Of a stretch of DNA of 49,805 bases, positions 14,901-49,805 are shown piece by piece. The notes beneath the pieces are model-generated. The model searched no databases. It was not told the origin of the DNA and was given only the letters and a program-made list of their open reading frames with translations. Origin of the DNA: a virus. Each line of letters opens with the position of its first letter. Position 1 is the first letter of the stretch. The stretch lies in IMG/VR virus record IMGVR_UViG_3300017741_000007, positions 1-49,805 of that record. One strand, 5' to 3'. The translations under genes and the position numbers were made by a program.

Positions 14901-17900
14901 GCTATTTTTTCTTTTTTTGAAGACGCTTCACCAATTTTTTTCTGAATATTTCTAAAACTACTTGCTGGAATGATTGTTTTAACTTTATCTAAAAGTTCTT
15001 TTGTTTTAGGCGTAATCCATTTTGCATCAATATTTTTATTTAAAGCCTTGTAAAAGTCATCTAACTTTCCATCTCCAGTAGTTCTAGTATGATAACCAAG
15101 TAAAGCACCTGGAATAAAAGTTTTTCTTCTGCCTAAAAGAATTTTTCCTTCCGTAGGTATAGCCTCAGCCAACGTTAAAGCATGACCAATAAATTCGTTT
15201 ACATCAGCGGTATTTACTGGTTTTAATCTTTTTTTACCTACTTTTTTTAGTGACTCAGTGTTCTTTAAGTCAAATTTAAGTTTATTTTTATCAGCTAAAT
15301 CGTAGTAGCTTAAATTATCAGTCTCTTTTGTAAACTTAGCGCCCTCTTTTCCAGCAACAACCTCATCTTCTAAAGCAACGTCAACGATGCCTTGCAGATC
15401 TTTAAAATCTAAATCTTTTTGAGTTGTAAAAGTTAAAAACTCTTCTTTTAAATTTTCAAAGACAGCATCTTTACCAGGTCCTTCTGTAATATTGTTTATA
15501 GCATTCTCTAAATCATCTAACTTATTTTTTTGCTCTGTAGTTAAACTAAACTTTAATGTAGGTAATCTATCTATTTCAGATAACACTTTAGCTCTTTTAG
15601 CTGGCTCCATTTTGCCTTCAGTAACCTCAGGAGCAGCATCTTTAACCAGCATTTCTGTTATTACATTAACTAAACCTTGTTTTCTTTTTTGAGTAAAAAA
15701 CTCTTTAGCCTGTTCAAGCGTTGTAGGTAGTTTAGATGACACTTTAGGACCAGACTGTAAGTTAGTATCTTTTGGTAATAAACCTTTATTAACAGCTTCC
15801 CTAGCATCCTTAACGTTGAGTCTAGGACCTTGCTCTGCTAATACTTTTACTTTAGCCTCTCTTTCTAGTTTAACTAGGTCTGATGCTGGTAAAGCTTTTA
15901 GTATTTCTAATATGTTTTTATTAAGAAACTGTTCGTCAATAGCTTTTTCCGTACCTATAATGTCAGATACGGCTTTACGTAGTTCACTTTTTCTAGCTTC
16001 TCTATTTACTGCTGTTTTTACCTTCTTGCCTGGTAATTCACCAGTCATTATATCTTCTGAAACTTTCTTAGCTAAATTATATATTTCATCATCTTGCTTA
16101 ATACCAAGAACTCTTCTAAGCTTAGATGTAGCTTGTTTTTCAGTTGGCGCTTCAGCCATGCTAACCTCTTCAGCTGCAACGCCTCTAGCTTCAGTAACGT
16201 CATCAGTGAATTCTTCACCTAATATTCTCTTAGAGGCTTCTATTGCTCTAGCCGGTAAAAACTTATTTATGTAAGCAGCTAGTGGAACTTCAGATTTAGG
16301 ATCGTATTCTCTAATTAAATCTAAAATACCTCTCTTACCTGTTTCTATTTCATCAGTAAGTAATTGTCTATCAAAGTTTGGTGCTTGAGATCTTTTTTCT
16401 ACTATTCTACTAGTTATAGGTTTAAACTGCTCTATTATATCAAACGCAGCAGCTTCACCTTGTGTGTCATATAACTCTTGAACTTTAGCAGAAGCTTCTT
16501 CAGATCTAGATTCTTTTACTATCTGCTCGTCCGTTTTAACTTTATCAGCAACTAGTTCACCTTTAGCTCCTTTTGATGCTAAGCTTAATTGAGATTTACT
16601 TAATTTTCCTTTTTCTAAACTTTTATTATAGTCTTTTATAAAATTATATACATCTCTACCTGTATTAAATTTTATATTTAAACCAAACTTTTGTAATATT
16701 TTACGTACTAAATCGCCAAGCTTAGTTGAAATATTTTCTTCGAACTTTAAATCACCGGTAGATAGCGCGTCGGAAAACAAAGTTAGTGCTTCTTCCATCT
16801 GAACTTCTTTAGACTCGCTAGCATATAACTCCATTCTTTTTTTGAAGTTACTATCTTTAATTTTGTTTGAATCTATTTTATTTAGTTCATTTATTAAAGC
16901 TTCTCCTAAATTTATAGCTGTATCTGGACTAGAATTTATAGTGTTAAATAGTACAGCATGACCAAGCTCGTGTCCTGCTATATTCATTGCTTTTTCTTTA
17001 GCAGCTTGTTCTCTATTTATTACAATAGTTTGTTTACCTGTGTTTTTATCTTGTATTATAAAACCCTGCTGGCCAGAGGCTTTAGAATCAATATCTTGCC
17101 CTTGATCCTTTAAAAACTCTTGTATTTCTTTAGCATTTGCAAAATCTTTAAACTCTAATCCTGCAATATCTTTAGAAGCTTCTTTCGCTTTAGTTATATT
17201 AGAAGCTAACTTTTCAGCTTGACTTCTAATGTCCATTACTTTTTGTTTAGACTCTTGCTTAACTTCGTTTAAAGATTCTATTAAAATAGTTTTCTCACTA
17301 TCGCTTAACGAATCATCAGATATTGTTTGATTTATTTGTTTATCAATATTAGATATTCTCTCTGTATTAGTATTTAAATCACTCAGTTGGTCTTCACTTA
17401 AAACAGCTACTAAGTTGTTGTTCTTATCAAATGTTTGTTTAATTTTTTCTTTTATTTGTTCTTGTGCTAAGTTTATTGAATTAATCTGATCTTTAGAAAT
17501 ATTTTTTCTGTATTTAGAATTTTCTAATTCTGTTAACTTGCTTAAATCAGCACTAAGTCTTTGTCCTTCAGCATAAGTTCTAATATTAGACGCAGACTTT
17601 AATGCTGATCCTCCTAGGGAAACACCTGATCCACCAACCACTCCTTGAAGATAAAGCTCTAATCCTTCTTTAGAATTCATAGTATTCCATGCTGCTAAAG
17701 CTGGATCTTTATCTTGAGAAGCTAAAGACGTGTTAAAAGTTTCTATTCCTAACTGAAGCCACTCTGTAAGCCCCTCTTTATTTCCTACATTTAATAAAGA
17801 GAACAAGCCTTTGGCAGACTTACTAGACATGCTATTTATATATTTTGTAACACCCTTTATACCTGCTTTTTCTAATGAGTATCCTAAAACACCATTAGCT

Positions 17901-18880
17901 ATAGGTATTAAAGATTCAGCCTGCCCGCTGGTATAAAGCTGCTCTAAAGACAATCCCAAAGAATTAGCTTTAGTTTCGTTAAAATCTTTTACCGATTGAG
18001 AAATCATTTCGCTAGCTAATCCAACACCTAAAGTGCCAACGCTTATTGCTGCTGAAGTGGCAAATGATGTAGCCGCATTTAAAGTAGCCGCTAATCCATA
18101 AGCCGCAACATTCTTTAGCTCTTTATCTGGCAAATCAGTAAAACCAACAGTTTGTCTAACCATGGAATTTAGCTCATCTATATCAGCAGTAGCTTTACCT
18201 AAGCCTATTAAACTATTTTTTAATATAGAATCAGCTTTATCTTTTGGAAAAATATTTCTAATTAAGTCTTCTCTAGAGCCTATAAAATTAGCTAAGTATC
18301 TAGCTCTATCGTCAAACCCTGCTAATTGATTTAAAGCGTTTAAGCCTGTGTTAATTATGCTTTGACCAGCAGAAATATCTTTGTCTAATAATTTTCGCCT
18401 ACGTTTTCTTTCTTCAATTTTGGTTTTTGAAAGTCTTTGAGTTTCTTCAAACTCAGTTATAGATTTTATCCCACCTAAATCTTTTTCTTGCATTTCAGGT
18501 ATGCCTAAAGATTTAAATATTTCTAAAGCAGCTTTGTTTTCTTCTTCTCGTTCTAGTTTTTTATATTCGCCTACAGTTACAACAACTTCTTCTAACTGAA
18601 CAGGCTCAACAGCAAATAAATCTTCTTCAATTTCTTTACCTGATAAAATTATTTCACCTTCCTCTGTAAAACCCGAAGAACCAGGTTCCAATGGAGATTC
18701 CATATTTTTTTGGGATGCGTTTGTTACATCCACAATCTCCGCATCCTCTTGAGTTGTGGGTTGTTTCTTTCCCTTTACCTCAGGGTTATTAGCTAAAAAA
18801 GTTGCTACATCTACACCTTTCTCTTCAGCAAACTTAGCGATCTGTTCTTCAGTTAGCTCTTTGTCTTTGAATGTATACAT
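11939..18880 (-). CDS. Giant internal virion protein with HELGH metalloprotease motif
   Basis: A 2313-residue protein at the end of the tail/internal-virion block, like the large ejected proteins of T7-type phages. Visible parts: a helical N-terminus; Ala/Gly-rich hydrophobic stretches (about 260-300); coiled coil (about 470-600); GHELGHAVLF with His637-Glu638-x-x-His641, a zincin active site; a region near 845-880 (RGILDLIREYDP...AYINKFLPAR) that resembles sigma-70 region 2 helices; a long conserved C-terminal half with IVLAFANTPAQYARLIKKA and a hydrophobic IIYYGVAQNLLFSALQQALFAI (about 2010-2060); and two C-terminal helical repeats (about 2220-2255 and 2268-2303). It probably enters the cell with the DNA. 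Domain borders are approximate. Confidence 0.85.
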   Translation of the reverse strand: MYTFKDKELTEEQIAKFAEEKGVDVATFLANNPEVKGKKQPTTQEDAEIVDVTNASQKNMESPLEPGSSGFTEEGEIILSGKEIEEDLFAVEPVQLEEVVVTVGEYKKLEREEENKAALEIFKSLGIPEMQEKDLGGIKSITEFEETQRLSKTKIEERKRRRKLLDKDISAGQSIINTGLNALNQLAGFDDRARYLANFIGSREDLIRNIFPKDKADSILKNSLIGLGKATADIDELNSMVRQTVGFTDLPDKELKNVAAYGLAATLNAATSFATSAAISVGTLGVGLASEMISQSVKDFNETKANSLGLSLEQLYTSGQAESLIPIANGVLGYSLEKAGIKGVTKYINSMSSKSAKGLFSLLNVGNKEGLTEWLQLGIETFNTSLASQDKDPALAAWNTMNSKEGLELYLQGVVGGSGVSLGGSALKSASNIRTYAEGQRLSADLSKLTELENSKYRKNISKDQINSINLAQEQIKEKIKQTFDKNNNLVAVLSEDQLSDLNTNTERISNIDKQINQTISDDSLSDSEKTILIESLNEVKQESKQKVMDIRSQAEKLASNITKAKEASKDIAGLEFKDFANAKEIQEFLKDQGQDIDSKASGQQGFIIQDKNTGKQTIVINREQAAKEKAMNIAGHELGHAVLFNTINSSPDTAINLGEALINELNKIDSNKIKDSNFKKRMELYASESKEVQMEEALTLFSDALSTGDLKFEENISTKLGDLVRKILQKFGLNIKFNTGRDVYNFIKDYNKSLEKGKLSKSQLSLASKGAKGELVADKVKTDEQIVKESRSEEASAKVQELYDTQGEAAAFDIIEQFKPITSRIVEKRSQAPNFDRQLLTDEIETGKRGILDLIREYDPKSEVPLAAYINKFLPARAIEASKRILGEEFTDDVTEARGVAAEEVSMAEAPTEKQATSKLRRVLGIKQDDEIYNLAKKVSEDIMTGELPGKKVKTAVNREARKSELRKAVSDIIGTEKAIDEQFLNKNILEILKALPASDLVKLEREAKVKVLAEQGPRLNVKDAREAVNKGLLPKDTNLQSGPKVSSKLPTTLEQAKEFFTQKRKQGLVNVITEMLVKDAAPEVTEGKMEPAKRAKVLSEIDRLPTLKFSLTTEQKNKLDDLENAINNITEGPGKDAVFENLKEEFLTFTTQKDLDFKDLQGIVDVALEDEVVAGKEGAKFTKETDNLSYYDLADKNKLKFDLKNTESLKKVGKKRLKPVNTADVNEFIGHALTLAEAIPTEGKILLGRRKTFIPGALLGYHTRTTGDGKLDDFYKALNKNIDAKWITPKTKELLDKVKTIIPASSFRNIQKKIGEASSKKEKIAIAKKALPDLIKHQESSLNFFNAFNSLLTDYLYDSKNQKEFESRLDYVLKLKRANSDNVKGERDLVILDGFYLGKPNGPIKLEHVKSSSQQSVQSLKSIVSGQWDTSIPNDFKGMFGYKNDFDEIDAYGKTNTSQYYRFYNKNIASNYILSEFGFDGTIYDKNLINAVEADLIKLKQKAAVSNNNKLPELVKFSKNSDYTNNMVLDRMAEIDDTSQEVELKFSKSLDLDKDFNDIIENKTGIASDKTYARVKAEVAGANKGRFNFFIPPSAEDFVGLLYSTLGKGDVGTAQMAWYKAHLLNPFARAMENLANDRVSMMQDYRGLKKALKIVPKDLRKKIKDSNFTKEQAVRVAIWDKQGMSVPGLSQKDQKELVDYVNADAELTVFAEQLIDINKGDEYVSPDAGWVAGTIDTDFIKALNTTKRSKYLETWQQNADVIFSEANLNKLEAAYGKPYRVALENMLYRMKTGRNRSFGTDTITSRFTDWLTNSVGAIMFFNTRSAVLQTISAVNFINFTDNNVLKAGQAFANQPQYWSDFKKLFNSPFLLDRRSGIKLNVNEADIAEMAKGPGNSARNVVAGLLKLGFLPTQIADSFAIASGGATFYRNRIKALKKEGLTEAEAEEIAFRDFREIAEESQQSSRPDKISQQQAGPLGRIVLAFANTPAQYARLIKKAASDLKNGRGDAKTNISKIIYYGVAQNLLFSALQQALFAIGFGDEDEEEEKRNEKYFNIANGMADSILRGIGVGGAVVSVVKNTAIRLAKEADKKAPKYQDAVVKGVLQISPPVSSKVGKLQSAGRSFSWNQEEMKTMGWSIDNPAYLASAQVISAITNVPLDRAIKKITNIKDAGDENIEYYKRVALALGWSAWELGIKKDSKGKVKKVEPKTDMDKLYDLNKKQQIDSLLSLGLSKKQIKALKLEEDRVKAILDPKSVKTIKVSKRDSLFGLNKKDQVKALEKLGLTKKEIRALRLESDRVEAIINKQKQEN

Positions 18881-29932: not shown

Positions 29933-31384
29933 TTACACTCCTTTGAATAATACAAAGTTGTTAGCAGCTTGTACTACTAAACATCTTTCAGATAGGAAGT
30001 TAACCTCCATTGCATCAAGACTAGAAGTGAAAGCACCTCCAGCTGATCCAGTCAACCAAGACTTCATACGACGATCTTCAGTCTGTGAAGCTCTGTATCG
30101 TACGTGTAAGAATGGACGACGAATGTTAGTTCCTAAAATTTGATCGTAAACTGTTGAAGTTCCAGCCGGTACTAAAACACCTTCAATTGAAGCTACACCA
30201 GTGATTGCACCACGAGTAGAAGCATCATTTAAGTATTTCCAGTCGGTCTTATAAAAATCATAAGATCCTCTACGGAAACCGCTAAACCCTAGGTTTAATG
30301 CCATTTCTTCAGAGTTTTCAAATAATCCATAAGCAGTACCACCTTGAGCACCAGTAGAAACGCCAGCTAGCATACCGTCAATTTCCAAAGAAGTTGCACG
30401 ATTTAAGAATAGCATGTTTTCTTCAATAGCTCCTTGAGTATCTAGATTTTTTAAGATATTATCAAAGTCATCTAAGTTAGCTCCGCTAAAAGCAACCTCA
30501 ACGTTTCCTCTGTCAGCTACAGCTGCGAATAAACCTTGTGTACCTTTATAGCCATCAGTTAAAGCTTGTGAACCAGCAGCTGCTAATTCTCCTTCAACTA
30601 CACTCATTTCTAAGTAATCTTCAAAACGTAAACGAGTTTCAGATTCAGCTTTTAAATACCATAAGTATCCAGATGTTCCATCTTCAGTAGCAACTTCTAC
30701 CCAACCGATTTGAGACATATCAGATCCGTTAATGGTGTAATTGTTACGAATAATAACAGGAGAATTGCTGTATTGAGTAAAAGTAGGATCAATACTAATG
30801 TTTTCTCCTTTTGTGGTAATCTCACCAGCAGCTCCACTCCAATTAGTTATTGAAGATCCTTTGCCAAATTCAGAACCATATACAAACATTTTTACTCCAG
30901 TAGCAGCTAGAGAACTTGTATCAGCAGCTGTATAAGGTGCAACAACCACATTTCCGCTTACTGGATGCGATCCTGTAACTACAGCTTTTAATTCAGCTCC
31001 AAGAGCATCTAAAAGAACAACAGTTTGTCCTGGAGAAACAACGTTTTCAACTAACGTGCCATCAAGAGCAGTACCTCCAACTGGAATACCAATAGTATTT
31101 GTTCCACTTGTGTTAGTACATCCATCATAAGCAATGTGTAAACGATTTTGTTCTGACCAGATAACTTGATCTGATGTCATTGGCATTTCAGCTCCAACCA
31201 TACGTAAGAATCCAGATAACGTTCTGTTTCCATAACGCTCTACTTCTTGTTCGTAAATTTCAGGTAGATACTGTTGTGCAAAGTCTTTTCCAGTTCCAGT
31301 ATTAAACTGCAAGTAGTTAGACTGTAATAATTGTTGTGATTGAGACGGTTTAATAGTCCCAAATGTAGGGGATAATGTTCCCAT
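29933..31384 (-). CDS. Major capsid protein
   Basis: A 483-residue protein placed after the scaffold gene and before the connector genes, as usual for the major head protein. Seen: a hydrophilic N-terminus, then the conserved-looking LPEIYEQEVERYGNRTLSGFLRMVGAEMPM and WSEQNRLHIAYDG (about 40-90), beta-rich middle, LRFEDYLEMSVVEGELAAAGSQAL, and a C-terminal end with FLHVRYRASQTEDRRMKSW and FLSERCLVVQAANNFVLFKGV. An HK97 fold is expected but was not tested. The gene is GC-richer and more codon-optimised than its neighbours and has a strong terminator behind it, consistent with high expression. Confidence 0.85.
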   Translation of the reverse strand: MGTLSPTFGTIKPSQSQQLLQSNYLQFNTGTGKDFAQQYLPEIYEQEVERYGNRTLSGFLRMVGAEMPMTSDQVIWSEQNRLHIAYDGCTNTSGTNTIGIPVGGTALDGTLVENVVSPGQTVVLLDALGAELKAVVTGSHPVSGNVVVAPYTAADTSSLAATGVKMFVYGSEFGKGSSITNWSGAAGEITTKGENISIDPTFTQYSNSPVIIRNNYTINGSDMSQIGWVEVATEDGTSGYLWYLKAESETRLRFEDYLEMSVVEGELAAAGSQALTDGYKGTQGLFAAVADRGNVEVAFSGANLDDFDNILKNLDTQGAIEENMLFLNRATSLEIDGMLAGVSTGAQGGTAYGLFENSEEMALNLGFSGFRRGSYDFYKTDWKYLNDASTRGAITGVASIEGVLVPAGTSTVYDQILGTNIRRPFLHVRYRASQTEDRRMKSWLTGSAGGAFTSSLDAMEVNFLSERCLVVQAANNFVLFKGV

Positions 31385-35033: not shown

Positions 35034-37250
35034 TTATATTATTTTTGAATTCACTCCTGTGTTATTGTATTTTCTAAAACCTAAAGAAACTTTTGATATT
35101 GTTCTTTTTGCTACTGGTGAGTATCTATGTTTGTTACAAGCCATTATAGCTAGTCCAGAACTTATAGAAGCATCATGTTTTGTTCTATTGTTAATATTAA
35201 ATTTAGCCCAATCTTCTAATGTTCTTTGAAAATAAGTGTTGCCATAACCTTCGTTTAATAAACCTACATGGTTTTCTATATAATCCTCTATAGCAGCTGC
35301 GTGAGCTTGTTTTATGTCTTCGCTAGAGTTAGGTATTCCACCTATTTCTCTTTCAGTTGTAGACAGTTTATTCATTGTTCTATCAGGTCTATTCATAGAA
35401 TATCCTCTGTAACCTCTTCTTTTTATATAATATAATAGTCTTGGTTTATTGTTCTCTGCTAATATAGGCATTCCATAAAAAACCAAAGCCATAAGAACAT
35501 CTTCAAAGAATATGTCAGCGGTTTGTGGTCTTGATATGTATTCTAAGAAAAATAAATTGGGCGGCACGTCCTCCATAGAGAACTTAGTTAATCCGTGTAA
35601 AGATCCTTTAGATCCTTTACCGTCTACTGTACCAGATATATCATAACTATCACATCCAAAAGCTCCGCAATGCTCGTTACCTGGATATTTAGTATTATTT
35701 TTTATACTGTATCTATTTTGAAGAGCAATAGGAGGTACCCAACTTACTAGAAATCTGCCGTTTTTATTAGGAACAAATATTACTCTAGTATCTTTAATCC
35801 CACCTTCCCATTGAAAATTACCCTGCGTAACAACATTAGTGTTGCGTAAGTCTTCATTATAATCTATCTGCTCGTATATTTTAGTTAAATTAAACAAAGA
35901 TTCTTTAGCTTCGTCTCTAAAAGCGTGTTTCTCTGTTCTTGGAAACTGTCTATAGTATTCGTTTAAACCGTCTTGATCGTCTTTTAATCCTTCAACTTCA
36001 TTTTCCCAATGCGATATTACACCAATATCGATTTCTTCTCCGTCAATTCCTTTAACTGGTTTTTTCGGAGTGTCGAATACAGGTAGTCCATAAGAATCAA
36101 TGTATCCTTCGTAGTTCCACTCCATAGGTACGAACAGACTATATAATCCTGAGCTAGTCTGACCGTTGCGGTTTCTTTTGTTGACATCCGAAGCTTCGTA
36201 TAACTTCTTAAAGTTTTCTCCACCTTTATCTAATGCATTTGAAGTAGAACCCATCATACATTTACCGACGATTCTTCTACCTAATCTTAACGTTGTCTTC
36301 GTGACCCTCCAGTTGTTGAGGATGTTGTCCGGTCTTTCCCACTTACCCGATTCATCGTGGACGAGGAGCTTAAGTTTCTCTCCGTCGTACGAGTTGTCTC
36401 CTGTGTTCTTCCAGTCGATCGTCGTATCAAGTCCGGCCTGTATGTCCTCTGAGGTCTCCTTGATTGAGTTTCTAGTGAGACGTTTGGACGGTACCTTATA
36501 TGATAATTCTGTTTTGGGACGTTCCATCCCGTCTTGTATCGGTTTGAAAAAGAATGGGTAGTTAATCGATATGGGTACAACTTTATCCGTGAACATTTTC
36601 TTAGCATCAGCTCCCGACTTAGAGAGTATTCCAAACCTAGAATCTCTTGATATTGTAGCCTGGTTAACCGTGTCGGATGAAGCCATGAAACTGAACCCGG
36701 ACCGTCTGTTCTTAAGATAACACATTCCGTAGCATCTACTATCCGACTTGCAAGCTTCCCAGAATATGTAGAATAATCTGTTTGATTCGCGGAAGTCTGC
36801 GTGCCCCACATCAATTTTGGTCCACTGCAGGTACATGTAGTGAGAACCAGTGATATAAGTAGGAATACCTTTGTTGTAATACCAATAACCTTCTTCACGC
36901 CTAACAAACTCTTTGTTAATATAGTCATAATATTTTTCTTTAAACGCTATAGGTCTTTCGTTCCAGTCGTATACCGTTTTTATTTTATTTAATTCAGATG
37001 GATAGTCTAAAACTTGCCATCTTTGATTTTCAATTTTATTAGAACTTTTATATACGTCTTCAGCTAATGGTAATGCTATTAATAGGTTTTGTATATTGTA
37101 TATTTCACCTATTTTTCCTGTTTTACTTATAACAACAACATCATGCTCTTTATTATATCCGTACTCCCATTTCTTAAGCCTATTTAATCTTTTTATTATT
37201 TTAGGCTTTATATGGTCTTGTACTACGTGGTATAGACTTTGCTCGTACAT
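35034..37250 (-). CDS. terL: Terminase large subunit
   Basis: A 738-residue packaging motor. Seen: the ATPase part with a deviant Walker A RRSGFS (182-187, preceded by LKN) and Walker B KLLVHDES (about 294-301, Asp299-Glu300), and a C-terminal RNase H-like nuclease with FGCDSYDISG, where the Asp would bind metal. Gene order (portal next) agrees. Unusual: the coding DNA for the ATPase domain (about 36280-36840) is clearly GC-richer (52% over 36301-36480 by hand count) than the flanking parts of the same gene (about 28-35%). The protein begins one base into the previous gene's stop (TAATG). Confidence 0.85.
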   Translation of the reverse strand: MYEQSLYHVVQDHIKPKIIKRLNRLKKWEYGYNKEHDVVVISKTGKIGEIYNIQNLLIALPLAEDVYKSSNKIENQRWQVLDYPSELNKIKTVYDWNERPIAFKEKYYDYINKEFVRREEGYWYYNKGIPTYITGSHYMYLQWTKIDVGHADFRESNRLFYIFWEACKSDSRCYGMCYLKNRRSGFSFMASSDTVNQATISRDSRFGILSKSGADAKKMFTDKVVPISINYPFFFKPIQDGMERPKTELSYKVPSKRLTRNSIKETSEDIQAGLDTTIDWKNTGDNSYDGEKLKLLVHDESGKWERPDNILNNWRVTKTTLRLGRRIVGKCMMGSTSNALDKGGENFKKLYEASDVNKRNRNGQTSSGLYSLFVPMEWNYEGYIDSYGLPVFDTPKKPVKGIDGEEIDIGVISHWENEVEGLKDDQDGLNEYYRQFPRTEKHAFRDEAKESLFNLTKIYEQIDYNEDLRNTNVVTQGNFQWEGGIKDTRVIFVPNKNGRFLVSWVPPIALQNRYSIKNNTKYPGNEHCGAFGCDSYDISGTVDGKGSKGSLHGLTKFSMEDVPPNLFFLEYISRPQTADIFFEDVLMALVFYGMPILAENNKPRLLYYIKRRGYRGYSMNRPDRTMNKLSTTEREIGGIPNSSEDIKQAHAAAIEDYIENHVGLLNEGYGNTYFQRTLEDWAKFNINNRTKHDASISSGLAIMACNKHRYSPVAKRTISKVSLGFRKYNNTGVNSKII

Positions 37251-37522
37251 TACTTAGATCTGCCTTCAGCAAAACCCTTAAAAGATTGTTCTTTCTTTTG
37301 TGTAGGTTTTTCGTTTATTATATTCTCTTCTTCTTCTATTCTAGATAATATCTCAAAAGCATCAAATATAGCAAGCTTTTTAGTAGCGGCAGCATTTTTA
37401 AGTCTATCAGCTGAGATGTCATCTTCTGAGTCTACGATCTTTTCTTTAGCTACCTTTATTAATTCTTCAACTGCTATTTGCCCAGCTTGGATTATATTCA
37501 GTTTCGTTTCCTTTATCTTCAT
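37250..37522 (-). CDS. Candidate small terminase subunit (90 aa)
   Basis: A 90-residue, helical and charged protein directly before terL, with a one-base overlap. Main segment: SADRLKNAAATKKLAIFDAFEILSRIEEEENIINEK, followed by a basic tail KGFAEGRSK. Size, helicity and position are those of some small terminase subunits, which recognise phage DNA and regulate TerL, but no helix-turn-helix is convincing. It overlaps the end of the upstream GroES-like gene by 56 bases. Confidence 0.55.
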   Translation of the reverse strand: MKIKETKLNIIQAGQIAVEELIKVAKEKIVDSEDDISADRLKNAAATKKLAIFDAFEILSRIEEEENIINEKPTQKKEQSFKGFAEGRSK

Positions 37523-38566: not shown

Positions 38567-38947
38567 TTATTTTACTTTATCTTTTATTTTCTCGTATGTT
38601 CTTAGTCCGCCAAGCCCGAGCATTCCTAGCAGTACTGTCATTAAATGTTCCATTTGTAATGGTGGTGGTGCATCTGTTGTTTTTGTTATCCAAATAAATA
38701 AATCACGTATAACAAAATTATAAGCTAATGCAACTCCGCATATCCATCCTATGAAAGGTCTCCAACCAGCAACGAACAAGGTTCTATGCGAGGCTTCAAC
38801 CATATTTATTTTAGTTTGTAGTTCTATTAGTTTTTCAGGATCAAGTTCTTTACCTTTAATAGCTTCTCTTATTTCCCAAGCTAAATTACCAGCTACAGAC
38901 TTTCTACCGCCTCCGCCTTTTAATAGCCCTAATAAAACTTTCCACAT
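38567..38947 (-). CDS. Holin, 3TM family
   Basis: A 126-residue protein resembling the 3TM holin family (GTA-holin type). After a helical N-terminus (GGGGRKSVAGNLAWEIREAIKGKELDPEKLIELQTKINMVEAS, residues 12-54) comes the family-typical FVAGWRPFIGWICGVALAYNFVIRDLFIWI and a second hydrophobic segment HLMTVLLGMLGLGGLRTYEKI. The G-W-R-P-x-I-G-W signature is strong. It permeabilises the inner membrane for endolysin release. The M15 endolysin is 27 kb away in the same strand block. ATG overlaps the preceding stop (TAATG). Confidence 0.85.
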   Translation of the reverse strand: MWKVLLGLLKGGGGRKSVAGNLAWEIREAIKGKELDPEKLIELQTKINMVEASHRTLFVAGWRPFIGWICGVALAYNFVIRDLFIWITKTTDAPPPLQMEHLMTVLLGMLGLGGLRTYEKIKDKVK

Positions 38948-41962: not shown

Positions 41963-42406
41963 TTATCTGTTCTTGTCTTTGTTTACGTTTTTTATAGCTG
42001 TTATTAAAACTTTATCTATATATGTTTTACCTGACATTATGCTATTTCTTTTACTTGTTGGAATATCTTCATCTCCAAGCATTATACGATACATTCTTGC
42101 TATTAGTTGTTTACACTTTAACGAAACTTTGTAGATGTTATATCTTTGTGTTGTCCTATTGTAATTTCTATAAACTACAATCCAACCGTCTTTTATCAAC
42201 TTGTTCCAGCGTCTATTATCCCAACTATAAGCATATGTACCGATTTTATAATCTTGTTTCGTAAACATTCCCATGCAATCAAAGTATATAAGCAACTCTA
42301 ATTCAGCATCATTAAGCTTATTATTCTTGCAAGCCCACTTTCTTACTATTCTATAATGCTTGAATAGGTTTAAGTCCCTAATGTCACTAGCTTGTAATTT
42401 TCTCAC
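41963..42406 (-). CDS. Winged-helix-like DNA-binding protein
   Basis: A 147-residue basic protein with a helix-turn-helix-like pattern: LNDAELELLIYFDCMGMFTKQDYKIG (helices 1-2), YSWDNRRWNKLIKDGWIVVYRN (recognition helix plus wing), and a beta hairpin RYNIYKVS. It resembles MarR-type winged helices. A regulator inside the late/virion block is expected to bind phage DNA or, less likely, to be packaged. Its C-terminus is basic. It overlaps the GroES start by 4 bases. Confidence 0.6.
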   Translation of the reverse strand: MRKLQASDIRDLNLFKHYRIVRKWACKNNKLNDAELELLIYFDCMGMFTKQDYKIGTYAYSWDNRRWNKLIKDGWIVVYRNYNRTTQRYNIYKVSLKCKQLIARMYRIMLGDEDIPTSKRNSIMSGKTYIDKVLITAIKNVNKDKNR

Positions 42407-42663
42407 AAAACAACTACAACATCCTGTATTTTAATTACAGTATATTGTTCTTTTTCAAATTCTATTGAATGACCAGCATGTCTATCGTAATATATCTGAT
42501 CACCTTTTTTTAAAGATTTAATTTCATCACTAACTGAATGTATTTCAGCTTGTATGTATCTTATATCTTCTCTGTCTTTTTTAACTAAAAGCAAACCACC
42601 TTTAGTTTTATCTCCTGTGATTTTAACAGGAACTATAACTAAGTTATTACCTACTGCTTTCAT
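42403..42663 (-). CDS. groES: Phage GroES-like co-chaperonin
   Basis: An 86-residue co-chaperonin, the cap of the GroEL chamber. Seen: NNLVIVPVK start strand; KTKGGLLLVKKD, whose G-G-L-L-L matches the GroES mobile loop that docks on GroEL; EIHSVSDEIKSLKKGDQIYYDRHAG, corresponding to the G-D-x-V strand; and EFEKEQYTVIKIQDVVVV, the last strand. Length fits short phage co-chaperonins. It overlaps the groEL start by 17 bases and the wHTH gene by 4, so it is co-translated with the GroEL. Confidence 0.85.
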   Translation of the reverse strand: MKAVGNNLVIVPVKITGDKTKGGLLLVKKDREDIRYIQAEIHSVSDEIKSLKKGDQIYYDRHAGHSIEFEKEQYTVIKIQDVVVVL

Positions 42664-44203
42664 CTAATCTTAAATTATTGATTACACAGTCAGTTGATAA
42701 TATAGTTGTTGCTACGGAAGCTGCGTTACGAAGTGCACTTTTGGTAACTAATAGAGGATCTATAATTCCTTGCTTAATCATATTTACCATATTGCCTGTA
42801 ACCACATTAAGACCTCTACCTTTACTCTTTGGTAATTCATATTCTAATATACCAGCGTTATCTAATATTGTCTTAAAAGGTGCTCTAATTGATTCTAGCA
42901 GCACTTCTTCTCCAGTTGACTTAGCAACTACGTTTTGTGATGCATTTAATAATGCAATTCCACCTCCTGGAACAATACCTTCTTTAATCGCAGCTTTAGT
43001 AGCACATATTGCGTCTTCTACTCGATCTGTTTTTTCTTTTAACTCTATATCAGAATTAGCACCAACCTTAACTACTGCTATTTTAGCTGATAATCTAGCT
43101 AATCTTTTTTCTAAACGTATTACAGCACCTGGGTTTTGAGTTGTTGATAAATCTTCTTTAATCTGCTCTATAATGTTTAGTATCTCTTCAGAAGAATCCT
43201 CAACTTGTATAATAGTTTCTTTTTCTGTAGTAACTGACTTAATACATGTACCTAGTAGTTCTGGTTGTATTAAATCCATATCATCACCTAAGTCTTCATT
43301 AATAACAGTTGCTCCTGTCAGTAGAGCTAGATCATCTAATATTTCTCTTTTGTTAATACCAAACGTAGGAGCGTTAATTATATTAACCTTAATGTTACCT
43401 TTTGTTTTATTCATAGCTAATGTAGATACAACTGAAGGTTCTACATCTGCTATAATAAGTAGTGGCTTTTCGTTTTTAATAACATACTCTAATACTGATT
43501 GTATTTGTCTTATGCTTTCAATAGGTGACTCTACTAGTAAAACTAAAGGGTTTTTTAATTCTGCAGATCTTTTAACATGATCTGTCATGAAGTGTTGATT
43601 AGTCATACCTTTGTCGTATTGAACCCCATCAACTATTTCTACAACTGTGTCAGACTCAGCAGACTGCTCCATCATTACCACACCTGTATCTCCTACCGCT
43701 CTAAAAGCATCACCAATTATTTTACCTAAATAATGATCGTTATTAGTTGATATAGTAGCTATTTGATCTATCATATCACCTTTAACGCTTGTACTTGTTT
43801 TTTCTAGGTATGCCACTACTTTTTCGGTTGCTTCTTCAATACCGCTTTTTAAGTCTCTAGAACTTATATTAGCTTGAACTTTCTGAGCTTCCTTTAGTAT
43901 GGCATGTGCTAGAACTGTTGCTGTAGTTGTACCATCGCCAGCTTCTCTTACTGTTTTACGTGCTGCTTCTTTTAAAAGCGTAGCACCCATATTTTCAACT
44001 GGATCTAATAATACAATTGTATCTGCAACCGTAACGCCGTCTTTTGTTATTAATGGATTTCCTGATCCATCTTCTAGTAACACACATTTACCGCTAGCTC
44101 CTAGCGTGGAGCTAACGGCTTTTGTGAGTTTGTTTATTCCTTCGAATACCTTATCTTGAGCTTCTTGCCCAAAATTAAGGTTTTTGACTATTAAGTCTGA
44201 CAT
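42647..44203 (-). CDS. groEL: Phage GroEL-like chaperonin
   Basis: A 518-residue group I chaperonin, which folds proteins in an ATP-driven chamber. Seen: ATP-binding TLGASGKC near 33-40 and GDGTTTATVLA (89-99, Asp90 equivalent to E. coli Asp87); DRVEDAICATKAAIKEGIVPGGGIALL (about 395-420), with the catalytic Asp of RVED. Length is slightly below E. coli GroEL (548) and the C-terminal G-G-M repeats are missing. It ends in DESSR. It lies in the late block with groES, so it probably assists virion assembly. Sequence is phage-divergent, not a recent host copy: it lies inside the phage operon with the same A/T leader and codon use. Confidence 0.95.
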   Translation of the reverse strand: MSDLIVKNLNFGQEAQDKVFEGINKLTKAVSSTLGASGKCVLLEDGSGNPLITKDGVTVADTIVLLDPVENMGATLLKEAARKTVREAGDGTTTATVLAHAILKEAQKVQANISSRDLKSGIEEATEKVVAYLEKTSTSVKGDMIDQIATISTNNDHYLGKIIGDAFRAVGDTGVVMMEQSAESDTVVEIVDGVQYDKGMTNQHFMTDHVKRSAELKNPLVLLVESPIESIRQIQSVLEYVIKNEKPLLIIADVEPSVVSTLAMNKTKGNIKVNIINAPTFGINKREILDDLALLTGATVINEDLGDDMDLIQPELLGTCIKSVTTEKETIIQVEDSSEEILNIIEQIKEDLSTTQNPGAVIRLEKRLARLSAKIAVVKVGANSDIELKEKTDRVEDAICATKAAIKEGIVPGGGIALLNASQNVVAKSTGEEVLLESIRAPFKTILDNAGILEYELPKSKGRGLNVVTGNMVNMIKQGIIDPLLVTKSALRNAASVATTILSTDCVINNLRLDESSR

Positions 44204-44601: not shown

Positions 44602-46431
44602 CTATGTTATTCCGTACTTTCCTTTTTGTGCGTTATACTTAGCAGTTATCTCCGATATTGTAAAAGTTGTGTTGTATGCTCTAATTTCCCCTAATTCACC
44701 ATACCCTCCGTAAATACTAGCTGGTTCGCTTAATAAATAAATATCATTATTATTAGTATTTTGAGGGCTAACGTTACCTAAAGCGGTATTGTTATAAGTA
44801 GTCGTATTAGGTTGATACCTGTGAAATTGAAAGTTGTTTGCTGGAAAATTAAAAATAGCAACAAACATGAACCAGTCAGTATTATTTACTGGAGCTATAT
44901 AACCAGGGTTTATAGCAGCATTATAATTAGCATCATAAAGGATTGTATTAAAACCTTCAATACTAGGGTCGTAATATCTAAAATACACTTGATTTTGCGT
45001 TGCTCCAGTGGCTGTGGATTTAAGAACAACATTTAAACCATTCACACTAATAGGAATGTTAGGTAATCTCATCCAATATAGCCATGTAATCACACTACTT
45101 GAATTCATATTTAATGCTCCTGAATGTGTAGAATAAGGTATTTTAAAGTAATCTGCCCTTGATGAAGAGGGTATGTTTAAATACGTTGCACCGTTTACAG
45201 TGCCGGTTGAAGGAACTGCTGTTGTTATAGTAGCGTCGTAACCATTGCCACTAACGTCAAACCAAGTGGAACCGCTACCAGTCCACGAATTTGCGTTATT
45301 AGCATCTAACCAAAGTATTTGATTAGGCTCTATTGATGGGGCTACAGCTTCGTCTTTTATCATATTCCACTGAAAGCCATCCCAATATTCTACTTTTTCA
45401 GTAGTGCTATTAAATATCATTTCGCCTACAGCTATTCCAGCTGAAGCAAATGAAACATTTCCGGATCCTTCTGTGAATTGTAAAACAGTATCACTGCCGT
45501 CTGTAGATTCTGTATAAACTAAGCTACCTGTTGTTTTTATAATTGGGGATGAATTTGTTGGGTATCTAAGTATAACAATACCAGAACCACCATCTCCAGC
45601 CGTTCCACTATTACTACTGCTTGCAAACGGATGCCCAGCTCCTCCTCCGCCACTACCTGTGTTTGTGGCACCAGATGTTCCGTTTAATGAGTTTGCATTA
45701 CCACCATCGCCACCTATTCCACTTCCACCCGCTTGAGTTCCTGAAGTTCCTGGCTTTCCGCCTCCTCCACCAGCAGCGTAAAAAACAGAAGTACCAGTTA
45801 TAGAATTAGTAACTCCAGAACCACCGTCTACGTTAGTAGGTCCATCAGATCCAGCAGAACCCGCGCCACCTCCACCACTACCACCATATGGTGAAACTTC
45901 ATAATAATCTCCCCCATCATTTCCTTGACTTGGGGTAGTAGAAGGTGTATTTCCTGAGCCACCTGCTGCGAATCCACCAGAATAACCAGTCCCTCCACCG
46001 GATCCACCACTGCCGCCAATGTTGCTATTATTATACATACCGCCTCTTCCTCCGCCAGCGGCTTGTATTGTTGTTATTCCTGTTCCGGAAAAAGTAGAAT
46101 CACCCCCATTAAAAGAGTTTCCACCGGGAGCCCCTCCGTTTCCACCGTCCCCAACTGTTATTGTGTACGCGGTTGAAGTATTTAAACTTAAACTTGTACC
46201 ACCATAGTTCGTTATTAAACCACCAGCTCCACCACCACCACCGGTTCCAACAGTAGAAGCTGTATACCCGGCTCCACCGCCCCCGCCACCAGCAACTACT
46301 AAATATTCTACTTGAACAGTAGAAGTTGTAGGCGTTGGTCTTGTAGATGTAGTAAATACAGGTAACTGAGTAGCTTCTGTATTGTTGCTACTTAAATTAA
46401 ATAGTTCAGGTGTTGTTATCTTTGTTGACAT
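44602..46431 (-). CDS. Gly-rich adhesin with LamG-like C-terminus (609 aa)
   Basis: A 609-residue probable tail-fibre adhesin. Residues about 38-300 are a glycine-rich sandwich that begins with VEYLVVAGGGGG and ends with GGSGIVILRY; this module is found in receptor-binding tips, e.g. T-even gp38-like. A short fibre module follows, GEMIFNSTTEKVEYWDGFQWN (330-350). The C-terminal 230 residues (PNQILWLDANNANSWTGSG, WFDVSGNGYDATIT, SVITWLYWMRLPN) fit a LamG/concanavalin-like domain for glycan binding. First of three neighbouring paralogues. Confidence 0.75.
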   Translation of the reverse strand: MSTKITTPELFNLSSNNTEATQLPVFTTSTRPTPTTSTVQVEYLVVAGGGGGGAGYTASTVGTGGGGGAGGLITNYGGTSLSLNTSTAYTITVGDGGNGGAPGGNSFNGGDSTFSGTGITTIQAAGGGRGGMYNNSNIGGSGGSGGGTGYSGGFAAGGSGNTPSTTPSQGNDGGDYYEVSPYGGSGGGGAGSAGSDGPTNVDGGSGVTNSITGTSVFYAAGGGGGKPGTSGTQAGGSGIGGDGGNANSLNGTSGATNTGSGGGGAGHPFASSSNSGTAGDGGSGIVILRYPTNSSPIIKTTGSLVYTESTDGSDTVLQFTEGSGNVSFASAGIAVGEMIFNSTTEKVEYWDGFQWNMIKDEAVAPSIEPNQILWLDANNANSWTGSGSTWFDVSGNGYDATITTAVPSTGTVNGATYLNIPSSSRADYFKIPYSTHSGALNMNSSSVITWLYWMRLPNIPISVNGLNVVLKSTATGATQNQVYFRYYDPSIEGFNTILYDANYNAAINPGYIAPVNNTDWFMFVAIFNFPANNFQFHRYQPNTTTYNNTALGNVSPQNTNNNDIYLLSEPASIYGGYGELGEIRAYNTTFTISEITAKYNAQKGKYGIT

Positions 46432-46443
46432 GTATTGTATTAA

Positions 46444-48240
46444 TTAAGAAGTTCCAGAGCCTAGACCCCAAATAGTTATTAATTCTGCCTCGGTCAACGC
46501 TGTATCCCAAAAGCCAAACTTAGCTATTTTACCATCTAAACTACTTTTACCAACGCCACCACCATACTCGGCAGGAGATTTTCCTAATGAATAAAATTGA
46601 TTTGGATTTGTAACTAAAGTTCCAGTATAGGATTGTGTTGAACCTGTTTGAGCTAATTGCGTAGATTCTGTTCCTATGTAAAGCTTAGCTGTGTTAGCAG
46701 TAGAATCAGCAACATACGCTATGTTATACCATGTATTTGCTGACACTGTAGTATTATTAATAACATCATAAGAATAATTATTACCATAGCTTAAACCAAC
46801 AGAAAAATTACCCGTGGAGCTTAAGTTAGAGTTAAAGGGAAACGCATCGTGATTGCTGGCGTAGAATTGTGATTTACTAAAAACTGTACCTGCATAACCG
46901 CTAGCTACGGTTACAGTATCAAATTTAACCCAAATAGAAAAAGAAAAAGTTTGATAAAGAGTATTAACAGGGGTTGTTATTATTGAACCAGTTGGAGTTA
47001 AGTCAAAATAACCATTACTGTAATTAGAACTTGTTATTGTAGCTGTATTTGCATTACCGCTTAAATCAAACCAGCTTGTTCCAGTTCCCGGGTATGAAGT
47101 AGCGTTGCTGGCACTATAATACATAACACTATTTAGTATCAATGGATGCTCTTGGTTTTCAAAGTATCTCCAGTCAGTGCCGTTATAATAAGTTATAGCG
47201 CTAGCAGAACCTTTACTTGATTGATTTGTATCGTTTCTAATCATACCTTCAACTCCAGTTGGTTGATTTGAACTAGTGCCACTAGGTATTTTTAAACCTT
47301 CTTCTGTAAGAGGCTTATTAAAATTTGTTACAGGGGTTGTTACTTTAGTGATACTAGAAGTTGGAGGTGGTGGAGCTGGGGCTGTAAAAGTTATCGAGCC
47401 TGTACCTACTGTTGTAAAACTAAGTATGGTTTGACCAGCTACTGTTGTTGTGTCTTCTGTTGGTGTTATTCCTGTAGTTGTATAGCTAGAAACGTCAGCT
47501 GTAGCATATCTAAGTATTACAATACCGCTATAACCCGATGAAGAAGGTCCAAAAGGCTCTCCACCATCTCCAGAATTTGAAACGCCTCTGTATCCAGTTC
47601 CATTGTTGCCATCAGTTCCAGCTGTGCCAGCGTAGCCTTTTCCTCCTTTAGCGCCTGAAGCATAATATATAGGAGAACCTGTTATTGATGACTGTAAGCC
47701 ATTCCCTCCATTTCCTCCGTTCATTCCACCACTGCCAGAGTTTGCTGTACCAGCTGAACCAGCACCACCTCCACCACCAGCGCCACCATCACCACCTGGA
47801 GCTCCATTTCCGCCATTATTTCCTTGGCCTGATGGCGTAGCTGTTCCTCCGGTACTGTTAACATTATTCCATCCTGATGCTCCTCCACCAGATCCTCCAG
47901 GTCCTCCATTTTGGTTTGTAACATTTGGATCTGAGCTAGCGTGAAAAATAGCGGCTCCGTATCCGCCACCTTCAGCTTCAATTGTAGTTACACCTGTTTG
48001 TGATATATAAGAATTTCCACCTTTATTTCCCCTTGCAAAGGTGTAAGTTCCGGAATACGCCGCTCCAGCTGCTCCTACGTTTAAATCAATAGAAACCCCG
48101 GTAGTAAGGTTTGTTGATCCATTTAAGAAACCTCCAGCACCTCCTCCTCCGCAGTACCAACTAAATGGGGGGCTAACAGCTCTATATCCACCAGCTCCAC
48201 CGCCGGCAACCACTAAATAATCTATATTGAAATTTGACAT
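46444..48240 (-). CDS. Gly-rich adhesin with LamG-like C-terminus (598 aa)
   Basis: A 598-residue paralogue of the upstream and downstream adhesins. It begins NFNIDYLVVAGGGAGGYRAV, keeps a glycine-rich section to SGIVILRYATADVS (about 250), a linker with GMIRND...YYNGTDWRYFENQ, then a LamG-like domain with WFDLSGNANTATITSSNYSNGYFDL and FSFSIWVKF. The same domain order as the 609-residue protein. Differences are mostly in the Gly-rich loops, as expected for receptor diversification. Confidence 0.75.
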   Translation of the reverse strand: MSNFNIDYLVVAGGGAGGYRAVSPPFSWYCGGGGAGGFLNGSTNLTTGVSIDLNVGAAGAAYSGTYTFARGNKGGNSYISQTGVTTIEAEGGGYGAAIFHASSDPNVTNQNGGPGGSGGGASGWNNVNSTGGTATPSGQGNNGGNGAPGGDGGAGGGGGAGSAGTANSGSGGMNGGNGGNGLQSSITGSPIYYASGAKGGKGYAGTAGTDGNNGTGYRGVSNSGDGGEPFGPSSSGYSGIVILRYATADVSSYTTTGITPTEDTTTVAGQTILSFTTVGTGSITFTAPAPPPPTSSITKVTTPVTNFNKPLTEEGLKIPSGTSSNQPTGVEGMIRNDTNQSSKGSASAITYYNGTDWRYFENQEHPLILNSVMYYSASNATSYPGTGTSWFDLSGNANTATITSSNYSNGYFDLTPTGSIITTPVNTLYQTFSFSIWVKFDTVTVASGYAGTVFSKSQFYASNHDAFPFNSNLSSTGNFSVGLSYGNNYSYDVINNTTVSANTWYNIAYVADSTANTAKLYIGTESTQLAQTGSTQSYTGTLVTNPNQFYSLGKSPAEYGGGVGKSSLDGKIAKFGFWDTALTEAELITIWGLGSGTS

Positions 48241-48241
48241 A

Positions 48242-49312
48242 TTAGCTAAATGTTATTGTTCCTGTTCCTGATGTAAACACTTCTATTTTTTCTCCAGGCG
48301 CTGTAGTTGAATCTACTGAACTTATTAAACCTGTTTTTGTTGTTGAATAAGCTGATGAGTATCTAATAATTACAACTCCAGAACCACCAGTTGCGTTAAC
48401 TCCACCTGCGCCACCACCTGTATTAGGCGTTCCTGCGTTAGCGGAGTTTGGCGTTGGCGCGGATGTTCCGCCTCCACCACCACCTAGACCGCCGGTTCTA
48501 GTGGTTGAGGGAGAATCATATACGCTTCCTCCACCTCCGCCAGCGTAGTAAACATCAGATCCAGAAACCTCCCCTACGTTTAAATTAGTGGCTTGAGTGG
48601 CTGGTAAAATGTTAACAGCAACTCCTATTCCTCCGTTTCCACCAGGTGCGCTGGCTGTTCCAGCTAGACCCGCAGCTCCTGCTCCACCACCACCGCCACC
48701 AGTATATGGTAACCCACCGTTTTGCGATGTGCCTCCTGCAAAACCTTGGTTTGTAGTTCCAGTTCCACCAGCTGAGCCATACAGCCCTCCTGCGCCACCT
48801 CCACCAGAGCCACCATTAAATCCGGGATAGTTAGATGGGCTGCCACCTCCTCTACCTCCTCCAGCAGATGTTATACTATCAAAAACACTGTCTTCACCAG
48901 TGTTAGAAGTCGCGCCATTAGTTCCATTACCAACAGTAACTGTGTAGGCTGTTGAAGTTATTAGTGTTAATGCATTTTCAGCGTTATTACCTCCTCCAGA
49001 TGTTGAACCATAAGACGTTCTTAGTCCTCCGGCTCCACCTCCGCCTGGGCTGTCATTTCTTGTTCCTCCGCCGCCAGCAACTACTAAAAAGTCAACAACC
49101 AAAGGTGGTATAGCATTTCCAGCTTCCACAAGGTTTCTCCAGTCAGTACCGTTATATACTTCAACTCTATCTGTTTCAGTATTATTACGAATCATACCTG
49201 CTTGAGGTGAAGATATAGCGTCTCTTTCAGCTGTTGTACCCTTGGCTATAACTAAGCCAGTGGTATCACCACTCATGTCTACAACGCTAGTTGAAACTCC
49301 GGTTAATGCCAT
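48242..49312 (-). CDS. Gly-rich tail-fibre/adhesin protein (356 aa)
   Basis: A 356-residue protein. N-terminus GLVIAKGTTAERDAIS, then PQAGMIRNNTETDRVEVYNGTDWRNL, a module common in marine tail fibres; then the glycine-rich domain from VVDFLVVAGGGG (about 72) to GGSGVVIIRYSS (about 320). No LamG end. It is the first or distal fibre segment of the set and shares the Gly-rich module with the two larger paralogues. Confidence 0.7.
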   Translation of the reverse strand: MALTGVSTSVVDMSGDTTGLVIAKGTTAERDAISSPQAGMIRNNTETDRVEVYNGTDWRNLVEAGNAIPPLVVDFLVVAGGGGTRNDSPGGGGAGGLRTSYGSTSGGGNNAENALTLITSTAYTVTVGNGTNGATSNTGEDSVFDSITSAGGGRGGGSPSNYPGFNGGSGGGGAGGLYGSAGGTGTTNQGFAGGTSQNGGLPYTGGGGGGAGAAGLAGTASAPGGNGGIGVAVNILPATQATNLNVGEVSGSDVYYAGGGGGSVYDSPSTTRTGGLGGGGGGTSAPTPNSANAGTPNTGGGAGGVNATGGSGVVIIRYSSAYSTTKTGLISSVDSTTAPGEKIEVFTSGTGTITFS

Positions 49313-49319
49313 ATTGTAA

Positions 49320-49805
49320 TTATGTTGTTGATATTATTTCTACACTTGTCCCTACAGGTGCTGCCGTATTTAAAGTTACTGTAGTAGTACCTGTTGCTGT
49401 TGCTACAGTGTAAGTGCCGCTATTTTGATAAACACCATCTATAAATATATTAACATAATTCGCAGCTGGAAGGGTATTTATAACTGCTGTTAAAGTAAAG
49501 ATAGATTGCGCTGTAGTTACTTGAAATAAATCTTTTGTTATTGCTGGAGTACCACCGCCTCCTAAGGCACCCCAAGAACCACTAACATTTAAAGTTCCAG
49601 TATAGCCTTCAAACTCGCTTGTTGTAGTATTATACCTAATCATACCAGGTAAAATTCCAGTTGGCCTATCAGTTGTGGCTCCGTTTGGTACTAGTATAGC
49701 GTCGTTATTGGCACTTAAATCTAAACTAACTTCAGGTTGATCAGTTCCTATACCAACTTTACCGTTTGAGTCAATGCGCATTACTTCATTAGTACTTCCA
49801 GCGCC
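49320..49805 (-). CDS. Tail-fibre protein, C-terminal part (cut by window)
   Basis: The reading frame stays open to the right window edge, so at least eight more residues (GAGSTNEV) precede the Met at 49781. Seen: VMRIDSNGKVGIGTDQPEVSLDL, the standard G-K-V-G-I-G-T fibre signature, then GMIRYNTTTSEFEGYTG and a beta-rich tip (LTAVINTLPAANYVNIFIDGVYQNSGTYTV). Probably the C-terminus of a longer trimeric tail fibre. Confidence 0.8.
   Translation of the reverse strand, partial: GAGSTNEVMRIDSNGKVGIGTDQPEVSLDLSANNDAILVPNGATTDRPTGILPGMIRYNTTTSEFEGYTGTLNVSGSWGALGGGGTPAITKDLFQVTTAQSIFTLTAVINTLPAANYVNIFIDGVYQNSGTYTVATATGTTTVTLNTAAPVGTSVEIISTT

Follow-up and report, generated by a model that had tools for sequence, protein, structure and literature searches.

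A podovirus-like phage genome encodes GroEL, GroES and a double GroES-like protein, a probable virus-adapted chaperonin system

We analyzed the IMG/VR virus record IMGVR_UViG_3300017741_000007, from a marine bacterial virus, over 49,805 bases, referred to throughout as the window, and found that its late genes include an adjacent groEL-groES pair together with a gene for a 201-aa protein whose predicted fold is that of a double GroES. The best explanation of these genes, and one that we regard as probable, is that the virus encodes a three-part, virus-adapted group I chaperonin system, consisting of a GroEL ring, a roofless GroES and the double GroES as a second co-chaperonin, which would most likely fold capsid or other large late proteins. 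The less expected part of this system is the double GroES, a design best known from chloroplasts. It was missed by the original prediction for this DNA, which had pointed to the GroEL-GroES pair, as was the groEL-groES order of the pair, which is reversed relative to the E. coli groESL operon.

Results

The chaperonin genes lie within the late gene block

The record is incomplete, since an ORF runs past its right end. Judged by its large terminase (TerL), which shares 61.6% identity with the TerL of Podoviridae sp. ctfjg026, the genome is podovirus-like, and its TerL identity with Elemovirus and Callevirus is 38–44%. The hosts of the relatives are Flavobacteriia, which makes it very probable that the window virus infects a member of the Bacteroidetes/Flavobacteriia.

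The minus-strand genes run in a series from tail-fibre-like proteins through the chaperonin genes, holin, double GroES, terminase, portal and a virion structural protein to more structural proteins (Table 1). The original prediction of an intact, adjacent GroEL-GroES pair inside a late or virion gene block was borne out, as both proteins passed their Pfam cut-offs and both genes lie on the late-gene strand, flanked by tail-fibre-like genes and by terminase, portal and capsid genes. Within this block, the 483-aa structural protein is probably the major capsid protein and a candidate client of the chaperonin. The small ORF between the double GroES gene and TerL could, by its position, encode the small terminase, and the same spacing was seen in viral relatives, in ctfjg026 and in phage phi18:3.

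Other parts of the late strand were also read. At the incomplete right end (44602–49805, minus strand), the sequences suggest three to four glycine-rich, repeat-like proteins of tail-fibre type. A 2313-aa late protein (11939–18880, minus strand) contains a HELGH metallopeptidase-like motif and has no Pfam match; giant proteins are similarly placed in relatives, with an 11.6-kb gene in ctfjg026 and an 11-kb gene in elemo.

Table 1. Coordinates of the chaperonin genes and of other late-strand features in the window.
Feature	Coordinates	Strand	Description
groEL	42647–44203	minus	518-aa group I chaperonin, without GGM tail; Pfam Cpn60_TCP1 (PF00118)
groES	42403–42663	minus	86-aa single-domain co-chaperonin; Pfam Cpn10 (PF00166)
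147-aa protein	41963–42406	minus	PHROG_17028, unknown function; next gene of the operon after groES
Holin	38567–38947	minus	
Double (tandem) GroES-like protein, 201 aa	37467–38072	minus	PHROG_13932
Small ORF between double GroES and TerL	37250–37522	minus	Position only
Large terminase (TerL)	35034–37250	minus	PHROG_6681, 2.3e-165
483-aa virion structural protein	29933–31384	minus	PHROG_13704, head and packaging, 4.4e-92

GroEL and GroES probably constitute a functional viral chaperonin

The Cpn60_TCP1 domain (E = 2.6e-58, 198 bits against a cut-off of 34, residues 26–509) spans the whole of GroEL, as expected of a group I chaperonin, and the protein also matched the PHROG groEL profile (2.8e-137). 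In alignment it is 39% identical to E. coli GroEL, and the best PDB matches of its AF2 model (pLDDT 76) were GroEL/Hsp60 chains. The accompanying GroES contains a Cpn10 domain (4.1e-11, 43 bits against a cut-off of 21, residues 3–85) and keeps the mobile-loop motif KTKGGLLL, of which G22, G23 and L24 are invariant in 44 sequences; its roof hairpin is deleted in the alignments. The two genes overlap by 17 nt, and the next gene in turn overlaps groES by 4 nt, an overlap found unchanged in 107 loci. A PDB search with the 147-aa product of this third gene gave no significant match. A homologue of it lies near groES in Maribacter phage Panino, on the opposite strand.

To judge from these features of the sequence, the pair probably represents a functional viral chaperonin, and its conservation is consistent with this. 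Counted within one clade, and so not as independent events, a GroES gene stood beside GroEL in 105 of 105 viral relatives in IMG/VR with enough flank (nearly always overlapping the groEL 3′ end), the 147-aa gene stood beside GroES in all 101 loci whose flank was long enough, the double GroES occurred with TerL in 69/69 and 63/63 loci, and GroEL was present upstream of the double GroES in all seven of the loci that had been fetched without GroEL and that extended 7 kb or more in that direction. Median dN/dS was 0.15 for GroEL, 0.25 for GroES and 0.28 for the double GroES, indicating that all three are under purifying selection. For the relative phi38:1, moreover, mass spectrometry revealed the phage GroEL in infected Cellulophaga (PMC13288928).

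A 201-aa protein has the predicted fold of a double GroES

The 201-aa protein, encoded one small ORF upstream of the terminase, matched the PHROG family 'co-chaperonin GroES' over nearly its full length (3.3e-22). Foldseek returned 7ekq_R and 7ekq_Q as the top PDB matches of its AF2 model (pLDDT 82), the match to 7ekq_R covering 198 columns and nearly the whole length. By sequence search, chains R and Q were named as Cpn20 and Chaperonin 23 (Cpn23), both of them tandem Cpn10 proteins from Chlamydomonas chloroplasts (7ekq). The model also resembled the viral-library model of the phi18:3 cpn10, with a TM of 0.75 over 200 columns, and the homologues phi18:3 gp096 and phi38:1 gp089 exceed the Pfam Cpn10 cut-off, in the C-terminal half only. 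By its modelled fold, the protein is thus a double GroES, the duplication being supported by the fold and by the homologues; hhalign of the N half against the C half gave nothing significant, and a PDB sequence search with the profile of the protein gave no Cpn10 match. A mobile loop with a hydrophobic tripeptide is not present in both domains. In the N domain, an L-(I/T)-(I/V)-N segment is conserved, mostly without GG, which makes for a weak mobile loop, and the C domain has a short loop without the GG-hydrophobic motif.

Profile searches confirmed groEL, single GroES and double GroES together in ctfjg026, Elemovirus, Panino, phi38:1 and Calle_1, and found none of the three in Tenacibaculum phage Gundel_1. 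In Cellulophaga phage phi18:3, the single and the double GroES were found, but no GroEL anywhere in the genome. The two lid genes are thus not tied to a viral groEL, and their products may be able to act with host GroEL. In the open-access papers searched, which leave out most subscription journals, we found neither a phage double GroES described nor any mention that the second co-chaperonin is a tandem protein.

Proposed action of the three proteins and of the double GroES in particular

In the mechanism that we propose, GroEL would form a heptameric, ATP-driven folding ring, the short, roofless single GroES would cap this ring, and the double GroES, encoded just before the terminase genes, would be the second co-chaperonin. 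All three genes are on the late strand and are therefore probably expressed while virion proteins accumulate. Unfolded late proteins, most likely the 483-aa putative capsid protein, would be enclosed and folded, and the roofless lid may enlarge the folding chamber. The double GroES could serve either as a second lid subunit, possibly mixed with single GroES to give seven domains, or as a head-assembly factor. Gene content, homology, ATPase residues, fold predictions, co-conservation, purifying selection and the separate ancestry of GroEL form the observed basis of this proposal, from which we infer ring assembly, late timing, the clients and the action of the double GroES on the chaperonin.

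How the double GroES would act admits of different answers. It is possible, though we lean against it, that three double and one single GroES supply the seven domains of a mixed heptameric lid, an arrangement that has been proposed for plastid Cpn20/Cpn10, placed on phage GroEL or, in relatives that lack one, on host GroEL. Single and double GroES occurred together in all six double-carrying relatives examined, the GroEL-less phi18:3 included; the top fold matches, Cpn20 and Cpn23, combine in plastids with single Cpn10-type subunits into mixed lids that function (PMC5780408, PMC4242682); and the profile of the single GroES, too, had Cpn20 as its best match. Against a mixed lid stand the distance of about 4.3 kb between the double GroES gene and groES, which are not adjacent, the ability of plastid Cpn20 to act alone as well (PMC4242682), and the degenerate mobile loops of the double GroES, which also count against the three-part system as a whole.

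The same degeneracy would suit a protein that reuses the GroES fold for head assembly or packaging and does not act on the chaperonin, so that GroEL and the single GroES alone would carry out folding. The fixed place of the gene by the terminase, seen in all loci and likewise in Elemovirus, Panino, phi38:1, Calle_1 and phi18:3, is in line with such a role, as is its faster evolution compared with GroEL (dN/dS given above). However, its homologues score as Cpn10 proteins, it always accompanied a single GroES in the genomes examined, and, of the phi18:3 proteins marked as structural by virion mass spectrometry, neither cpn10 is one, which argues weakly against a role in the virion. We find this reading rather doubtful and retain the three-part system as the better account.

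GroEL keeps its ATPase residues and has altered binding and inter-ring surfaces

The original prediction held that all catalytic residues of GroEL are kept. It holds for the ATPase residues D52, D87, T89–T91, D398 and D495, which are retained in the window GroEL and in nearly all of 68 relatives (the Asp90 cited there is residue D87 of E. coli, and DRVED ends in D398), yet the inter-ring contacts have been remodelled, as has the apical binding surface. Among the apical positions checked (Y199, Y203, F204, L234, L237, L259, V263 and V264), F204 and L237 are kept, and Y199, Y203, L234, V263 and V264 are replaced throughout the clade, mostly by L or M, H, Q, A and M, respectively. Between the rings, R452 is mostly K, S463 and V464 are replaced or deleted across the clade, and the loops near 426–436 and 461–466 are shortened across the clade. 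The salt-bridge residue D83 is also replaced clade-wide. The replaced positions are invariant or nearly so in the 39 bacterial GroELs sampled plus that of E. coli. The C terminus reads ...NNLRLDESSR, so the GGM tail is indeed missing, as had been noted. Given the apical and inter-ring changes and the shortened loops, the protein may depart from GroEL in its folding capacity or in its number of rings, and the residues taken together suggest a working ATPase with a re-tuned lid/client interface and an uncertain ring-ring contact.

These clade-wide replacements speak against the three-part system, as does the failure of the distantly related phage-EL chaperonin to refold rhodanese (PMC7185714). 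The inter-ring changes and shortened loops could instead indicate a single-ring or holdase-type GroEL that keeps proteins from aggregating instead of folding them under a lid, as in phage EL, whose chaperonin goes to single rings with ATP (PMC7185714). We consider this unlikely, however, since groEL is always adjoined by a groES of its own whose mobile-loop motif is intact, while phage EL has a GroEL-like protein only, and since the window GroEL is closer to E. coli GroEL (39% identity) than the EL protein is reported to be (22%; PMC7185714). The three-part system remains the reading that we prefer.

GroEL is not a recent copy of a host gene

In a 45-row maximum-likelihood tree, from which the longest branches were left out, the window GroEL fell into a clade with a support of 100/99, outside the bacterial GroEL clade (100/97). 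Its identity to flavobacterial GroEL has a median of 42%, as high as that to other phage GroELs, and a maximum of 43%, and to no sampled bacterial GroEL does identity exceed 43%. In the tree, the GroEL of Bacteroides phage DAC16 grouped with Bacteroidota, that of three Vibrio phages grouped with Gammaproteobacteria, and other Bacteroidetes phage GroELs appeared as long branches; in a 76-row version, a quick tree, the OBP and PBS1 GroELs were very distant from that of the window. By phylogeny and identity, then, GroEL has a viral ancestry separate from the sampled bacteria. A recent host copy, the finding that the original prediction had named as fatal to it, is ruled out by the separate viral clade and the low identity. 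That groEL and groES are recently captured host genes carried as passive cargo is highly improbable, for although the relatives infect Flavobacteriia and flavobacterial GroEL is as similar as other phage GroELs are, the position of the clade, the identity ceiling, the reversed gene order, the conserved operon and the purifying selection all argue against it.

In a scan of genome contigs, the only relatives of this GroEL were on four short contigs binned into MAGs that carry the labels Aliivibrio, Chloroflexi, Flavobacteriaceae and Sphingobacteriales. At least two of the contigs have a phage-type groES beside groEL, and the four are therefore probably phage contigs mis-binned with bacteria. With tblastn, GroEL was found in 287 phage records; unannotated fragments are among these, so true phage genes number at most this many. 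Records with GroEL that are named for Listeria, Enterococcus and Acinetobacter phages include unannotated or short ones and may reflect host contamination.

Discussion

A virus with its own folding machine would not need to rely on that of its host, and its capsid could evolve beyond the reach of the host chaperonin. For the window virus, the independence from host chaperonin that the original prediction foresaw is plausible. The clade described here also offers a set of naturally diverged GroEL-GroES pairs in which the inter-ring and binding surfaces are altered. More speculatively, and in our view somewhat improbably, a family of Bacteroidetes podovirus-like phages may use a lid of tandem and single GroES that is separable from their own GroEL and usable on host GroEL, as phi18:3 would exemplify. 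If lids of this kind do exist, the seven-fold symmetry problem, that of even-numbered lids on an odd ring, would become testable with small recombinant proteins and cultivated marine phages.

The GroEL-GroES pair itself is not new, since GroEL and GroES have already been reported in such phages. GroEL was found in 36 of 78 phi38:1-like genomes (Nishimura 2017; PMC5332604), Cpn10 is listed as a core gene of the Pervagoviridae (PMC8776804), GroEL and GroES were noted in Panino (PMC11590407), the phi38:1 protein was detected in infected cells as described above, and some phages are described as encoding both proteins (PMC7185714). The original prediction that an adjacent pair would be unusual in a podovirus therefore does not hold, as pairs are annotated in Elemovirus and ctfjg026 and near-adjacent genes are present in Panino, with GroEL published as early as 2017.

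Among these phages, ctfjg026 (MW202828, Manatee Spring) has the closest TerL and shares with the window both overlapping groEL-groES genes in the same order and the succession of double GroES gene, small ORF and TerL, but its GroEL is only 36% identical and its double GroES is annotated as hypothetical. The Elemovirus phages (vB_FspP_elemo phages of Flavobacterium sp. BAL314) also have overlapping groEL-groES genes, and a 180-aa protein annotated as GroES adjoins TerL; they differ in that the pair lies on the strand opposite TerL, and their GroEL is 39% identical. Panino (PP540027) encodes groEL, a nearby single GroES annotated as hypothetical and a double GroES adjoining TerL, but in its annotation a small ORF separates groEL from the single groES, and its genome is larger, with many tRNAs. 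In the Callevirus phages phi38:1 and Calle_1 (Pervagoviridae), which have GroEL, a single Cpn10 and a double GroES adjoining TerL, the order is instead groES, a 90-aa ORF and groEL, and the chaperonin genes lie among replication genes. The Baltivirus phi18:3 (Pachyviridae) has a single cpn10 and, ahead of a small ORF and TerL, a double cpn10 of 200 aa; it differs from the window virus in its lack of GroEL.

Comparison can be extended to better-known systems. T4 gp31 lacks the roof hairpin, a loss that has been proposed to enlarge the chamber, and the hairpin is likewise missing from the window GroES in alignment; gp31, however, is used with host GroEL, whereas the window virus encodes its own GroEL too. 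The giant-phage chaperonins of the phage EL gp146, OBP and AR9/PBS1 type are likewise phage-encoded GroEL homologues, but the window GroEL does not group with them, being far from OBP and PBS1 in the tree, 39% identical to E. coli GroEL and accompanied by a cognate GroES. Chloroplast Cpn20 differs from the phage double GroES in having a GG(V)LL-type mobile loop in both domains, and there is no evidence for common descent of the two duplications. The likeness to the chloroplast lies in the presence of a tandem beside a single GroES, as with Cpn20/Cpn23 and Cpn10-type subunits, and in the fold, for which Cpn20/Cpn23 gave the best match to the phage protein; should the phage lid indeed combine tandem and single GroES, phages would encode their own counterpart of the chloroplast co-chaperonin.
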